NCBI GenBank assembly: GCA_900540595.1
Contig: UQGL01000003.1
Location: 85,554-149,553 of the forward strand
DNA length: 64,000 nucleotides
Direction of reading: 5' to 3'
DNA from: an uncultured Oscillospiraceae bacterium
GTDB taxonomy: Bacteria; Bacillota; Clostridia; Oscillospirales; Ruminococcaceae
Both the position numbers and the translations under genes were made by a program. Position 1 is the stretch's first letter, and the number at the start of each line of letters is the position of its first letter. Of the stretch, positions 11,230 through 18,202 are shown in pieces. The notes beneath the pieces were generated by a model. It was not told the DNA's origin. It worked only from the letters and a program-made list of their open reading frames with translations, and did not search any database.

Positions 11230-11321
11230 GGAAAGATGGCTGAGCTGGTCTAAGGCGCACGACTGGAAATCGTGTAGGGCCCCTAAAGCCCTCAAGGGTT
11301 CGAATCCCTTTCTTTCCGCCA
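11230..11321 (+). tRNA. tRNA-Ser (GGA)
   Basis: Class II tRNA with acceptor stem GGAAAGA/TCTTTCC, anticodon loop CTGGAAA (anticodon GGA, codons UCC/UCU), a long variable arm, T loop GGTTCGAATCC and an encoded CCA end. Confidence 0.97.
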
Positions 11322-11480: not shown

Positions 11481-11540
11481 TTGACATTCTCGGTCTATTG
11501 TAGTAGACTGTAAACAAAGATAGGTCTATTACAGTAAACC
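11481..11540 (+). promoter_or_regulatory. BlaI-type promoter with two operators
   Basis: TTGACA (11481-11486), 17-nt spacer, TAGACT (11504-11509). One dyad, GTCTA-N6-TAGAC (11493-11508), covers the spacer and -10. A second, related dyad GGTCTATTACAGTAAACC (11523-11540) covers the start of the transcript. Both share GGTCTATT..AGTA.AC and resemble MecI/BlaI operators, as expected for autorepression by the next gene. Confidence 0.8.
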
Positions 11541-11554
11541 AAAGGAGTTACCCC

Positions 11555-11932
11555 ATGCTGAACCATGAACCGCTCCGCCTTGCCGATGGCGAATACCGCT
11601 TTGCCTGCCTTGTGTGGGACAATGAGCCGCTGCCCAGCGGGCAGCTTGTTACGCTGGCCGCCGCCGCGCTGGGCTGGAAAAAAAGCACCACCTACACCGT
11701 TTTGAAGAAGCTCTGCGAGCGCGGTGTGCTGCAAAATTCAGACGGTCAGGTGACAAGCCTGATCCGGCGGGAGGATGTCCAACAGGCCGAGAGTGCCGCC
11801 GTGGTGGACAAGACCTTCGGCGGCAGCCTGCCGCGCTTTGTAGCCGCCTTCCTCAACTCAAAGCCGATCAGCGAGGCCGAGGCTGCCGAGATTCGCGCTC
11901 TGCTGGACGCCGCCCAACAAAAGGAGGGGTAG
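11555..11932 (+). CDS. BlaI/MecI-type repressor
   Basis: Winged-helix repressor of 125 residues. The N-terminal part has the recognition segment GWKKSTTYTVLKKLCERGVL characteristic of BlaI/MecI. The C-terminal helix region (FLNSKPISEAEAAEIRALL) is the dimer domain that is cleaved when the partner BlaR1-type protease is activated. A strong AAAGGAG precedes ATG 11555. It lies 2 nt before the M56 gene, the classic repressor-sensor pair, and its two operators lie in front of it. Confidence 0.92.
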   Translation: MLNHEPLRLADGEYRFACLVWDNEPLPSGQLVTLAAAALGWKKSTTYTVLKKLCERGVLQNSDGQVTSLIRREDVQQAESAAVVDKTFGGSLPRFVAAFLNSKPISEAEAAEIRALLDAAQQKEG

Positions 11933-11934
11933 TT

Positions 11935-13851
11935 ATGCGCAGTATCGTACTTTCCTTTTTGCTGCTCAGCGCACGCGGCGCGGTGGCCGCAGCGGCAGTC
12001 TGGTGCGTTTGCCGGGTGCTGCGCCGCGCCCACGCCCCCAGCCGTCTGCTGTGCTGGCTGTGGCTGGCCGTAGGGGTACGGTTCGTGCTGCCGTGGGGCA
12101 TTCCGCTGCAGCTGCCCCGCCCGCAAAGCGCCCCGCTGGCTGCAGCCGCCGACACCGTGCAGGAGCTGGGTGCGCTGCCGCTTCCGGATTTGGCACCGGC
12201 AGCACCCACCGCTGCGGCCGCGCTGCCGTGGTACACCCGGCTGACCCCCTGGCATATACTTGCGGCAGTCTGGCTGGCCGGTGCGCTGGTGCTGGCGCTG
12301 CGCGGCATCGCGGGCTATTGGCGGCTACGCCGCAGCGTTGCGCTGGCCTGCAAGGCACCGGACGGCTGCTACGGCGGAGCCTGTGTGGCTGCACCGTTCA
12401 CGCTGGGCATCCTGCGCCCGCGCATCTATCTGCCGGACAGTCTGCAGGGCGCGGCCCGACAGGCCGTGCTGCTGCATGAGCAGACCCACATCCGCCGCGG
12501 CGACCCGCTGACCAAGCCGCTGTTTTATGCTGCAGTCTGTCTGCACTGGTTCAACCCGCTGGCATGGCTGGCGTTCCGCGGTTTTGAGCGCGACATGGAG
12601 GCCGCCTGTGATGAGGCCGCCGTGCAGGGCCGCCCCCTGCCCGAGCGCAACGCCTACTGCGAAACGCTGCTGCAGTTTGCTGTACAGGGGCAGCGGGTGC
12701 CGGGCAGCCTGACCTTCGGGCAGGGCAGCGTAAAGGGGCGCATCGTGCATCTGCTGCACTACCGCCGTCTGGGCGCGGGGGCACTGGCGGTCTGCATAGC
12801 CGTGGTCGGCCTCTGCTTTGCTGCCTGCATGGTCCGTCCGGAGCTGTCCGCACAGCCCGAGACCACAACAGCCGCACCGGAAAGCCCGGCCACTGCCGAG
12901 ACCGCCCAGCCAGCCGAAGCGCCCGCACCGGTGGTACAGACCTCTGCCCTGCCGACATTGAGCGATGCCGCGAACAGCCCGCGATTCCTCTGCCCGGTCG
13001 ATTACAAGTACATCTCCCGTTTCCGTTCAGACGAGGACGGCCACCGCGGCGATGACCTCTGTGCGGATGAGGGCACCGAGATTTACGCCGCCGCGGACGG
13101 TGTTGTGCTGGCCGCGCAGGAGCATTACAGCTGGGGCAATTTTGTGGAGATCGACCACGGTACCGACGCCGACGGTCTGCGCTGGGTCACGCTGTACGCC
13201 CACATGAAGTCCTGCGCCGTGCAGGTCGGGCAGACCGTCACTGCCGGGCAGGTCATCGGGTATCTGGGGCACACCGGCAACACAACCGGCAACGCCTGCC
13301 ATTTTGAGATGCAGGTCAATGGCGTCCTTACGGAGCCGCGCTATTTTACCGCCTACACAGGCAGTGATGCCGCCGAGCTGACGCAGGAAAAGGCAGACGA
13401 AATTCTGGCCGAGGCCGTGCGCCGCGCTGCTTCCGACCAGACGACTGCCGTTGATGGAGCTGCCGCCCTTTCCGGCGTGGATCTCTTTACCCTGCCGGTC
13501 GCGCCCCCGCCGCAGGTCAGCGGCTATGCCCCCGAAAACGGCCACTCCGGCATTGACTTTGCCGCCGAGGAGGGTGCGGAGGTTTACGCCGTTGCCGGTG
13601 GTATCGTGACCGCCGCCGACTACGATGTTGAAAAGGGCAACTATGTCGTCCTTGACCACGGCGGCGGGCTGGAAACGGAGTATCAGCACATGAAGTCGCT
13701 GCTCGTCTCTGCCGGGCAGTCCGTGGTCCAAGGCCAGGTCTTGGGATATGTGGGCAGCACCGGCAATTCCACCGGGCCGCACCTGCACTTTGAGGCACGG
13801 CAGGACGGCGCGCCTGCAGACCTGACCGGGACTGCCCTATTAGCGGAGTAA
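11935..13851 (+). CDS. M56 (BlaR1-type) metallopeptidase fused to two M23 (LytM) domains
   Basis: 638-residue membrane protein. Residues 1-300 form a BlaR1/MecR1-like M56 module with membrane segments near 1-25, 36-56, 104-125 and 281-300 and the zinc motif HEQTH (181-185), then LHWFNPLAWLA and ERDMEAACDE. A Pro/Ala/Thr linker (305-340) leads to two LytM domains. The first (350-465) has HRGDD (His370, Asp374) and His423 but ACHFE where HxHFE is expected, so one zinc or catalytic His is missing (Ala454). The second (525-630) has HSGID, QHM and HLHFE complete. BlaR1 normally ends in a penicillin-binding sensor; here LytM domains replace it. A sensor of peptidoglycan state that inactivates the neighbouring BlaI is inference. 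Confidence 0.88.
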   Translation: MRSIVLSFLLLSARGAVAAAAVWCVCRVLRRAHAPSRLLCWLWLAVGVRFVLPWGIPLQLPRPQSAPLAAAADTVQELGALPLPDLAPAAPTAAAALPWYTRLTPWHILAAVWLAGALVLALRGIAGYWRLRRSVALACKAPDGCYGGACVAAPFTLGILRPRIYLPDSLQGAARQAVLLHEQTHIRRGDPLTKPLFYAAVCLHWFNPLAWLAFRGFERDMEAACDEAAVQGRPLPERNAYCETLLQFAVQGQRVPGSLTFGQGSVKGRIVHLLHYRRLGAGALAVCIAVVGLCFAACMVRPELSAQPETTTAAPESPATAETAQPAEAPAPVVQTSALPTLSDAANSPRFLCPVDYKYISRFRSDEDGHRGDDLCADEGTEIYAAADGVVLAAQEHYSWGNFVEIDHGTDADGLRWVTLYAHMKSCAVQVGQTVTAGQVIGYLGHTGNTTGNACHFEMQVNGVLTEPRYFTAYTGSDAAELTQEKADEILAEAVRRAASDQTTAVDGAAALSGVDLFTLPVAPPPQVSGYAPENGHSGIDFAAEEGAEVYAVAGGIVTAADYDVEKGNYVVLDHGGGLETEYQHMKSLLVSAGQSVVQGQVLGYVGSTGNSTGPHLHFEARQDGAPADLTGTALLAE

Positions 13852-13855
13852 CAAG

Positions 13856-15085
13856 ATGAAATACAGGCACTTCCCCGCCGCTGTATTGGCGGCGGGGCTG
13901 CTTTTTTATACCCTTTTTTCGGGCTTTGCCGCACAGGCAGCAGACAAAAAGGGCGAATTGACGCAAAAACAGACCGAGACCCGGCAGGAGTATGAGGCCG
14001 CGCAGTCCGCACTGGCCGCGCTGCAGGCGCAGCAGGCCCAGACCGAGAGCGAGATCCAGTCGCTGAACGGACAGGCCGCCGAGCTGGCGGGGCAGATTGA
14101 GGCGGTAACCGCTGCCGTGCAGCAGGCACAGACAGAGCTTGACGCGCGTTTGTCTGATGCGGAAGCCGCACGGGCTGCCCGGGACGCCAAGCAGGCAGAG
14201 TACGAGGCACGCCTTTCCGTCTGCAAGGAGCAGCTGCGCGCAATGCAGCGGCTGGACGGCGGCGGGGCGCTCTGGCTGCTGACACAGGCCAAAAGCCTGT
14301 ACCAGCTGCTGACCTTTGACACCGTGCTGCGCCAGATGAGCGCCAAAAACAGTGCCGTTCTGGCCGAGCTTGACGCTGAGGCCGCTGCGCTGGAGCAGGC
14401 CCGCGCCGAGGCCGAGGACGCTGCCCGCCGCGCTGAGACCGCAAGAGCCGAGCTGGAGGGCCAGCAGACTGCCCTGCACACCGCGCAGAGCCAGCTGGAA
14501 GCCGCCCTGCTGGACGCCAACAGCACCCTGACCGCCCAGCAGGCCGCCGCACAGGCCCAGACCACCGTGACCGATGCCGCGAAAAAGGCCTACGAGGAGG
14601 CTACTGCCGCGCTTGATGCCTATGTGCGGGCGCAAAGCCGCCGCTACACGACGGCAGAGCTGCGGCTGACCAGTCTTGATTTCCGCTGCCCGCTGGACAG
14701 CTACGGGCGCATCACAACACAGTTCGGCGAGGCGGACCCATGGGGCATCCCCCACAGAGGCACCGACTTTGCCGCGCCGGGCGGCACACCGATCTACGCC
14801 ATTGCGGACGGCATCGTCAGCGCCGCGCGGGCGATGAACAGCTACGGCAACTGCGTACAGGTCAGCCACGGCACAGCGGATGACGGCTGCCGCTACGACA
14901 GCCTGTATGCTCACATGAGCAGCATCGCCGTGGCGGAGGGCACCGCCGTGCGGCGCGGCGATCTGCTGGGCTATGTCGGCAACACCGGCAATGTCTACGG
15001 CACCGGCGGCGGGTATCACCTGCATCTTGAGCTGCGGGTGAACGGCAGCCGCACAGACCCGCTGGGCTATGTGCCGAGCCGATAG
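13856..15085 (+). CDS. Secreted coiled-coil M23 peptidase, EnvC/PcsB-like
   Basis: 409-residue murein hydrolase or hydrolase activator. It has an N-terminal signal peptide (to about residue 29, cleavage near AQAA), a long Ala/Gln/Glu-rich coiled coil (about 33-265) and a C-terminal LytM domain with a full zinc site: PHRGTDF, YAHM and HLHLE. This is the layout of EnvC and PcsB-type cell-separation proteins. It starts 4 nt after the M56-M23 gene, with GGAG upstream, so it is in the same BlaI-controlled operon. Confidence 0.9.
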   Translation: MKYRHFPAAVLAAGLLFYTLFSGFAAQAADKKGELTQKQTETRQEYEAAQSALAALQAQQAQTESEIQSLNGQAAELAGQIEAVTAAVQQAQTELDARLSDAEAARAARDAKQAEYEARLSVCKEQLRAMQRLDGGGALWLLTQAKSLYQLLTFDTVLRQMSAKNSAVLAELDAEAAALEQARAEAEDAARRAETARAELEGQQTALHTAQSQLEAALLDANSTLTAQQAAAQAQTTVTDAAKKAYEEATAALDAYVRAQSRRYTTAELRLTSLDFRCPLDSYGRITTQFGEADPWGIPHRGTDFAAPGGTPIYAIADGIVSAARAMNSYGNCVQVSHGTADDGCRYDSLYAHMSSIAVAEGTAVRRGDLLGYVGNTGNVYGTGGGYHLHLELRVNGSRTDPLGYVPSR

Positions 15086-15158
15086 GGATGGATTTTATCG
15101 GCGGCCTGCGGAAACACCCATCTCCCCTGCGGACGATTTGAAAACGAGGTTTCCTATT

Positions 15159-16520
15159 TTGACCTTCGGTGATTTTTTGTATTTTGTCGGCTTTCAGGTC
15201 GAATATACCGCCGTGCGCCTCGCGCGCAGGATGTGGGCGGCAGCACAGTGGGCTGCGTGGGCCGCGCTTACGCTGCTGGCCGTGCTGCTGCGGCCTGTGG
15301 TGCGGGCGGCGGCAAATTTCAAGGCGGCGCTCTGCGCCCCGCGGCAGCTGGCAGATTATCTGCTGCCTGTGCTGGCCTGCGCAGCGCTGGCCGTCTACCT
15401 GCACACAGCGCTTTCCCAGCCCTTTGTGCTGCGGGTCGAGGTAAACGGCCAAAGTGTCGGCTATGTGGCCGGTGAAGCAGCCTTTGAGGCAGCGCGCGCT
15501 GATGTGCAGGCCCGCATCAATGGGGTGGCCGACTGGCAGATACAGCCGGAGTACACCCTTGTCCGGGGCGGCGCAGATACCCCTACTCTGACCGAGCGGG
15601 AAATCGCCGATGCCATCCTGCGCGCCTCCGGCGGGGAGATCACCGAGGGGACCGCCGTCTACATAGACGGCGCGCTGCAGTTCATCACCACCGAGGGCGA
15701 CCATCTGCGGCAGTTCCTCTATGCGCTGCGCCGCCCCTGGCAGCGCGAGGGTGTGCAGACAGCCTTTGTGCATGGGCTGCGCATGGTGGACGGCATCTAC
15801 CCTGCTGCAGCGGTCACACCTTACCCTGATCTGATAGAGGCACTGCAGCGCGGGGACGGCCTGTTGCAGGTCAAGGTCGTGCGGTATGAGACTGTGACAA
15901 AGGCGCTGCCCTTTGAGACACAGACCGTTGAGGATCCCGCGCTGGACTTTGGCAAGACCGAGACCGTACAGGACGGGCAGGACGGCGCCGAGCAGGTCAC
16001 AAGCGAGATCACCGAGATAGACGGAACGGTCGCGGCTGTGCAGGCCGTGGATGTGCAGCTTTTACAGCCCGCCGTGCCGGAGATCATCCACCGGGGCACA
16101 CGGCTGAAAAGCGGCATGATCGGCAAGCTCGGCACCGGCAGCTTTCTCTGGCCTGTGCCGGGGTATTCGGGCATCAGCCGATGGGCTAATCTACCCTATG
16201 GCCACCGCGGGGTGGACATCACCGCAGCCTACGGCACACCCATCTACGCCGCCGATGCCGGCACCGTCATTGCCGCAAAGTGGCATAACCACCCCACCAT
16301 GAGCTGGGGCTACTATGTGGAGATCGACCACGGCAACGGCTACAAAACGCTCTACGCGCACATGTGCCGCTTTGTTGTACAGGCCGGGCAGACCGTGGAA
16401 AAGGGTCAGTTGATCGGCTATGTAGGCGCTACGGGTGCCGCCACCGGCAACCACTGCCATTTTGAAATGTATTACAACAACGCCCTGATCAGCGCACGGA
16501 ATGTGTTCCCGGATATATAA
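15159..16520 (+). CDS. Membrane-anchored G5-domain M23 peptidase
   Basis: About 453 residues if TTG 15159 (after GAGGT) is the start. An earlier in-frame ATG at 15069 would overlap the previous gene and has no ribosome site. Two hydrophobic segments lie near residues 34-50 and 68-82, then a region with weak repeats, a G5 domain (about 238-313, starting ALPFETQTVEDP and ending IIHRGTRL), and a LytM domain with the zinc motifs HRGVD, YAHM and HCHFE. G5-M23 proteins bind and cut peptidoglycan, and several act in sporulation or wall remodelling. It is the last gene of the operon. Confidence 0.85.
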   Translation: MTFGDFLYFVGFQVEYTAVRLARRMWAAAQWAAWAALTLLAVLLRPVVRAAANFKAALCAPRQLADYLLPVLACAALAVYLHTALSQPFVLRVEVNGQSVGYVAGEAAFEAARADVQARINGVADWQIQPEYTLVRGGADTPTLTEREIADAILRASGGEITEGTAVYIDGALQFITTEGDHLRQFLYALRRPWQREGVQTAFVHGLRMVDGIYPAAAVTPYPDLIEALQRGDGLLQVKVVRYETVTKALPFETQTVEDPALDFGKTETVQDGQDGAEQVTSEITEIDGTVAAVQAVDVQLLQPAVPEIIHRGTRLKSGMIGKLGTGSFLWPVPGYSGISRWANLPYGHRGVDITAAYGTPIYAADAGTVIAAKWHNHPTMSWGYYVEIDHGNGYKTLYAHMCRFVVQAGQTVEKGQLIGYVGATGAATGNHCHFEMYYNNALISARNVFPDI

Positions 16521-18118: not shown

Positions 18119-18202
18119 TGGTGCGGAAGATGGGACTTGAACCCACACGTCATAGACACACGCACCTCAAACGTGCCTGTCTGCCGATTCCAGCACTTCC
18201 GC
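18119..18202 (-). tRNA. tRNA-Leu (GAG)
   Basis: Class II tRNA with acceptor GCGGAAG/CTTCCGC, anticodon stem CACGT/GCGTG with loop TTGAGGT (anticodon GAG), a long variable arm, T loop GGTTCAAGTCC and an encoded CCA end. Confidence 0.96.

Follow-up and report, generated by a model that had tools for sequence, protein, structure and literature searches.

A penicillin-detecting switch apparently rebuilt in a gut bacterium, with wall-cutting enzyme domains, one of them disabled, as its sensor

We analysed a 64,000-nucleotide stretch of DNA from an uncultured Oscillospiraceae bacterium (contig UQGL01000003.1; hereafter the window) and found, at 11481-16520, an operon in which a BlaI-type repressor gene is followed by the gene of a BlaR1-type receptor whose outer part consists of two LytM (M23) domains. 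One of these lacks a catalytic His. Two further LytM genes follow, and in related genomes the operator of the operon also accompanies such genes when they lie away from blaI. On balance we think it probable that this is a BlaR1/BlaI-type switch redirected to wall hydrolysis, although we infer the binding of BlaI, the ligand, the cleavage of BlaI and the sign of the feedback. The sequences themselves show the parts and the operators, the conservation of the regulon, the lost residues and the purifying selection on the first LytM domain.

The operon and its receptor

The window is a segment of a Gemmiger-type chromosome. Its closest named relatives are Gemmiger formicilis genomes, to whose receptors the window receptor is 78-82% identical (best segment). 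The whole operon lies on the + strand, in the order promoter with two dyads, blaI, M56-LytM-LytM gene, EnvC-like LytM gene and G5-LytM gene (Table 1), with gaps of 2 bp and 4 bp among the first three genes. BlaI contains a Penicillinase_R domain (PF03965, 64.6 bits against a cut-off of 22.6). The receptor has the M56 zincin feature of BlaR1 and MecR1, an HExxH motif with a downstream Glu, and H181, E182, H185 and E222 were invariant in 49 rows. Four predicted membrane helices (residues 2-31, 36-51, 105-134 and 281-298) place the protease between the third and the fourth and the sensor after the fourth. A follow-up structure comparison gave a BlaR1 fold match to the receptor, the 50 Foldseek matches listed were of M23 type only, and the top fold matches of LytM domain 1 included EnvC and DipM.

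No penicillin-binding domain was found in the receptor ectodomain, where two M23 domains stand instead, and the receptor scored 56.3 bits with the NCBIfam model blaR1_generic against a cut-off of 400. A beta-lactamase or penicillin-binding partner was also rejected, as none was present in the ectodomain or the other operon genes, the only part of the genome searched for one. We examined ten Clostridial M56 receptors picked from 79 loci: one carried an M23 domain, for which it had been chosen, three carried DUF domains and six nothing named. By-eye judgement gave the EnvC-like protein a signal-like start and a coiled coil, and the G5-LytM protein one membrane anchor.

These results bear out much of an earlier note on this DNA, made from the letters alone, which had described a BlaI repressor preceded by two dyads, an M56 protease with two LytM domains outside and no penicillin-binding domain, and a first LytM domain without one active-site His. 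The EnvC-like and G5-LytM genes that it placed next are both there, but the EnvC-like protein deserves its name by layout only and has a complete active site.

Loss of a catalytic His in the receptor

M23 domains from the window, the loci and the protein hits were aligned, one being kept per 88% cluster, and five residues were read in each: the zinc ligands (first His, Asp, last His) and two other, catalytic His. Two rows were dropped, L013, in which the first hit is no genuine M23 domain, and an EnvC-like row with an unaligned first motif. LytM domain 1 of the window reads HDHAH, with all three zinc ligands present and Ala at residue 454, in the motif ACHFE. Domain 2 is intact (HLHFE), and the EnvC-like protein reads HDHHH. 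Among 20 non-redundant receptors with two LytM domains, 19 combine a domain that has lost a catalytic His with an intact one. In 17 of the 20, domain 1 is disabled and domain 2 intact; two show the reverse, domain 2 having lost the other His, and in one both are disabled. The 17 disabled first domains have Ala in 13 cases and Met, Gly and Ser once each; the remaining one is the degenerate L024, which has also lost zinc ligands. The free LytM genes were intact throughout (18/18 complete EnvC-like rows and 8/8 G5 rows).

The same pattern was found in 143 close homologues of the receptor. None had His at the position of residue 454 (133 Ala, 4 Gln, 4 Ser, and 2 Ala with a zinc-ligand change), and domain 2 was intact in every one. 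Domain 1 is under purifying selection (dN/dS 0.16-0.24), and on this ground, together with its retained zinc ligands, a decaying remnant was rejected. Loss of the HxH His as a common M23 trait was rejected as well. In two genomes with a chromosome-sized main contig, 24 M23 domains outside M56 proteins were aligned, of which 7 were degenerate or partly aligned and 17 zinc-complete (four being the regulon's own genes); the HxH His was missing in 0/17 and the other His in 2/17. On a tree of M56 parts the His losses need at least 11 changes, 9 of them forced by supported branches; dereplication retained rows whenever the motif differed, and the 39 lost and 15 intact rows are therefore not a frequency. 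An M23 tree, short, poorly resolved and with the motif columns included, gave 9 changes for three states.

Published mutants of LytM bear on what such a loss would do. Exchange of either catalytic His for Ala abolishes its activity, and Tyr204 mutants lose activity with peptidoglycan binding almost unchanged (PMC4594094). Because of these data, domain 1 could plausibly have lost catalysis and still bind.

Operators and the conserved regulon

In the operon promoter the -35 and -10 elements flank dyad 1, and dyad 2 lies 31 bp further on. The pattern GTCTATTNNAGTANAC was derived from the two window dyads themselves, which are its two exact matches; with up to three mismatches allowed, the window contains 11 matches where 4.9 would be expected, so that the window alone is weak evidence for the dyads. 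Across 35 genus genomes, the composite TTGACA-N6-GTCTA-N6-TAGAC with at most one mismatch had 30 matches in 19 genomes, compared with 1 for a reversed control pattern. They comprise 14 blaI promoters of receptor operons, nine unlinked EnvC-like genes, two unlinked G5-LytM genes, the blaI of G079, whose operon is reduced, one blaI site read a second time, and three matches, at two places, in loci with phage-like genes. The bare dyad GTCTA-N6-TAGAC was not enriched in eight genomes (13 against 12 for the reversed control per strand in all), and thus only its locations are informative; the blaI promoter was among them in 8/8.

The paired dyads at the blaI promoter are conserved and are putative BlaI sites. 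Similar dyads occur upstream of blaI in many relatives, reaching other Clostridia. The promoter-dyad pattern fits 22 of 25 blaI promoters (with a poor -35 in G075 and G082), and the other three (G087, G085, G078) are off pattern, yet a dyad is present. The second dyad is absent from nine blaI promoters (G096, G004, G088, G005, G072, G093, G075, G082, G084) and weak in two (G070, G006). BlaI_0696 of C. thermocellum binds inverted GTCTAT repeats 5 nt apart, with two pairs per target (PMC8457756); the hexamers are four apart here, and the motifs are therefore alike, not identical.

We took as EnvC-like orthologues the best 24 rows of the homologue list (E up to 3.1e-95) in the genus genomes. Half of them (12/24) adjoin a receptor gene and the other 12 lie elsewhere. 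Nine of the latter have a BlaI-type promoter-operator within 250 bp; two do not (G081, G062), and in those two genomes no receptor was found at E 1e-60, the threshold for receptor presence. The remaining one (G074) runs into a contig end and is not judgeable. By comparison, the operator-promoter was found in 0/31 rows of a paralogous gene. In seven genomes (G004, G005, G069, G071, G076, G088, G096) the unlinked operator precedes an EnvC-like gene with a G5-LytM gene behind it, and in G078 and G084 a lone G5-LytM gene away from blaI has its own. The operator is present in G069 though no receptor was found there at the same threshold. A scoring matrix trained solely on the first dyads of blaI promoters gave all 11 unlinked promoters (9 EnvC-like, 2 G5) 21.6-26.8 bits at dyad 1 and 14.4-24.9 at dyad 2 (the scan of G088 was anchored on the opposite strand), where 99.9% of best-of-22 background scores are below 7.4. 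That the operator accompanies EnvC-like and G5-LytM genes away from blaI argues strongly for a conserved regulon.

Two side observations concern operators. The operon in G079 (L182, 2232-3475) consists of blaI with an operator and a 275-aa protein that covers M56 model positions 1-71 only, has no HExxH and carries an intact LytM domain; judged by its sequence, it is a reduced receptor. At L181 91-130 and L183 3314-3341, TTGACA and a related palindrome (GTCTAGYGTGCTAGAC) lie close to phage-like genes. The next gene in L183 matches the phage replication-initiation family phrog_20437 (E 5.7e-34) and support in L181 is weak; the palindrome is perhaps a prophage operator.

Table 1. Features of the operon, in window coordinates.
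Feature	Position	Strand	Remarks
Promoter	11481..11509	+	TTGACA, 17-nt spacer, TAGACT; -10 overlaps operator 1; layout repeated in relatives
Operator dyad 1, GTCTATTGTAGTAGAC	11493..11508	none	similar to the C. thermocellum BlaI motif (PMC8457756)
Operator dyad 2, GTCTATTACAGTAAAC	11524..11539	none	offset 31
blaI, repressor	11555..11932	+	PF03965 64.6 bits; matches MecI/BlaI structures 1okr, 1sd4
M56-LytM-LytM receptor, 638 aa	11935..13851	+	PF05569 143.5 bits (residues 8-270); M23 in two stretches
HEQTH zincin motif, residues 181-185	12475..12489	+	H181, E182, H185, E222 invariant in 49 rows
LytM domain 1, residues 369-468	13039..13338	+	zinc ligands retained, first His of HxH gone
Ala454 codon, position of LytM His291	13294..13296	+	role of His291: PMC4594094
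LytM domain 2, residues 536-629	13540..13821	+	all five active-site residues present
EnvC-like LytM protein	13856..15085	+	PF01551 96.4 bits; active site complete
G5-LytM protein	15159..16520	+	longest ORF from 15069; PF07501 61.1, PF01551 106.6 bits; active site complete

The proposed circuit and its alternatives

In the circuit that we propose, BlaI would sit on the two promoter dyads and repress the operon, and the receptor would cross the membrane in four predicted passes with its M56 zincin inside and its LytM domains outside. Domain 1 has kept its zinc ligands and fold and lost one water-activating His, and therefore should bind without cutting; it would hold uncut peptidoglycan peptides without turnover, and domain 2 would still be able to cut. 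When uncut LytM substrate accumulates, or the wall structure changes, the occupied ectodomain would activate M56, which would cleave BlaI, and EnvC-like and G5-LytM enzymes would be made until the substrate drops. The regulon so released would be small, made up of LytM enzymes together with the receptor. The closed circuit of the earlier note agrees with this at the level of the regulon, and its division into a binding and an enzyme domain holds for 19 of the 20 two-LytM receptors. We put forward more tentatively, as possible rather than probable, that the receptor was built from a stalled version of the kind of enzyme under its control, and that its LytM cassettes can be exchanged, the exchange retuning which wall structure is read.

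One sequence feature would fit cleavage of BlaI. The S. aureus protein is cut before Phe102 (PMC9834060), and a Phe aligns with this P1' residue in 106/108 distinct BlaI-like rows, counted with a pattern that does not require it. Several points weigh against the proposed circuit. P1 is not Asn as in S. aureus; it is Ala here, and the 108 rows have Ala 81, Ser 24, Thr 2 and His 1. A peptidoglycan dipeptide has been reported in BlaI control in B. licheniformis (PMC3305447), and by analogy BlaI may be under other control of this kind. A terminator-like hairpin with a T run at 13873-13897, within the first codons of the EnvC-like gene, has its stem preserved in the window and three relatives; it might weaken read-through from blaI and is possibly an attenuator. 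Three of the 30 operator-like matches, at two places, sit in loci with phage-like genes. Finally, 17/25 one-LytM receptors keep the full catalytic set and 8/25 lack the first His of HxH only (Gln 3, Cys 3, Leu 1, Ala 1), in a class that contains two receptors cut at contig ends (L171, L009) and may hold further cut ones. A disabled sensor is therefore common, not required.

The intact one-LytM receptors, like the intact domain 2 of the close homologues, would also fit a fusion that is mainly a membrane-held wall hydrolase, with M56 shedding the LytM domains or merely setting the expression level. We regard this as unlikely, since domain 1 is selectively disabled under purifying selection and enzyme is already supplied by separate LytM genes, to which the operator ties the receptor gene.

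Exchange between receptors raises another alternative. In three receptor pairs the M56 parts are 95-99% identical and the LytM domains only 61-66%, one member of each pair having HLH and the other QVH. Identity climbs again after the LytM domain, to 94 and 88% in L004/L007 and 92 and 98% in P0201/P0202, and is 98% over the last 60 residues in P0225/P0226. Most sequences are metagenome assemblies, with chimeras possible for some pairs; L007 is from a named strain. From these comparisons, LytM domains seem to be swapped as cassettes between receptors, and the changes on the M56 tree are therefore not all point losses. Such exchange could be an arms race if the receptor detects attack from outside by foreign LytM enzymes, lysostaphin-like bacteriocins, host lysozyme or phage lysins. 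That explanation is improbable in our judgement: more wall-cutting enzyme is an odd output for a defence, none of the four operon genes is immunity-like, and the exchange sequences come mostly from metagenomes. An ordinary beta-lactam response, in which wall damage by the drug is sensed indirectly and the hydrolases help repair, would suit the classic pairing of BlaI with M56 and the stress said to be needed besides receptor acylation for B. licheniformis induction (PMC3305447), but is very unlikely: the receptor lacks a penicillin-binding domain, and the four operon genes, to which the search was confined, include neither a beta-lactamase nor a penicillin-binding protein.

The switch that we favour has close parallels. 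The BlaR1 sensor is related to class D beta-lactamases; there a beta-lactamase relative senses and beta-lactamase is the output, and here LytM would be both sensor and output. If the proposal is true, the BlaR1 design rule has arisen a second time, in another enzyme family. BlaR1/BlaI and MecR1/MecI of Staphylococcus aureus have a penicillin-binding sensor and produce beta-lactamase or PBP2a, in contrast to the LytM (M23) sensor and the LytM enzymes under the operator here. EnvC, NlpD and DipM resemble domain 1 in their incomplete catalytic set and the EnvC-like protein in layout, but domain 1 retains its zinc ligands and the EnvC-like active site is complete. The M56-M23 combination is already in print, as M23-M56 proteins in InterPro (PMC9662197). 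The accessible text of that review counts M23 proteins that carry an additional catalytic domain, M56 included, as <1% of hits, treats M23-M56 as a peptidoglycan hydrolase architecture, notes that no part of M56 in cleaving peptidoglycan is demonstrated, and describes neither a regulon nor operators nor loss of residues. If our reading is right, the switch would have in common with WalRK control of D,L-endopeptidases in Bacillus subtilis (PMC7299342) that hydrolase activity feeds back on hydrolase genes; WalRK is a two-component system that senses cleavage products, with different enzymes and receptor. In the literature searched, as far as its text was accessible, we found no account of this regulon or of a stalled sensor (bioRxiv and most subscription journals were outside the search). 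BlaR1-type receptors are known as drug sensors, and this family suggests that M56-BlaI may be a general wall sensor that accepts plugged-in enzyme domains. It offers a testable route to wall-cutting balance outside two-component systems in anaerobic gut Clostridia, and its intact, stalled and paired sensors form a natural series for asking how a receptor arises from a hydrolase.

Several further observations concern the locus. A 420-bp block (13501-13920; domain 2 and the start of the EnvC-like gene) is 90-100% identical in DNA among Gemmiger genomes (L001, L002, L003), compared with 70-88% over the preceding 180 bp and 61-80% over the following 300 bp. Between the window and three G. formicilis genomes, domain 2 has a dS of about 0.09, domain 1 one of 0.4-0.9 and the M56 part one of 0.55-0.79. 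We read the block as a product of exchange; the alternative is an extra constraint on the DNA. Shorter stretches of high identity lie at 13081-13260 (78-100%) and 16081-16200 (90-100%, two genomes). Tandem receptor genes stand behind a single blaI in L006 (6001-9112) and L010 (6001-9508); such a pair may have been a donor when domains were exchanged. Phage origin of domain 2 was rejected, as the best phage match (MT837794.1, L239, 'Bacteriophage sp.') itself contains this operon, with a partial receptor gene and EnvC-like, G5-LytM and Lrp genes; it looks like a mislabelled chromosome fragment.

For the G5-LytM gene we prefer the TTG start at 15159 to 15069, because the alignment with the L002 orthologue begins there and GAGG lies just upstream. 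Plasmids gave no near match, and Rfam matched nothing beyond the tRNA. An Lrp-type gene lies 3' of the operon in the window and several relatives; tRNA-Ser(gga) (11230-11321) lies upstream of the operon and tRNA-Leu(gag) (18119-18202) downstream, on the opposite strand.

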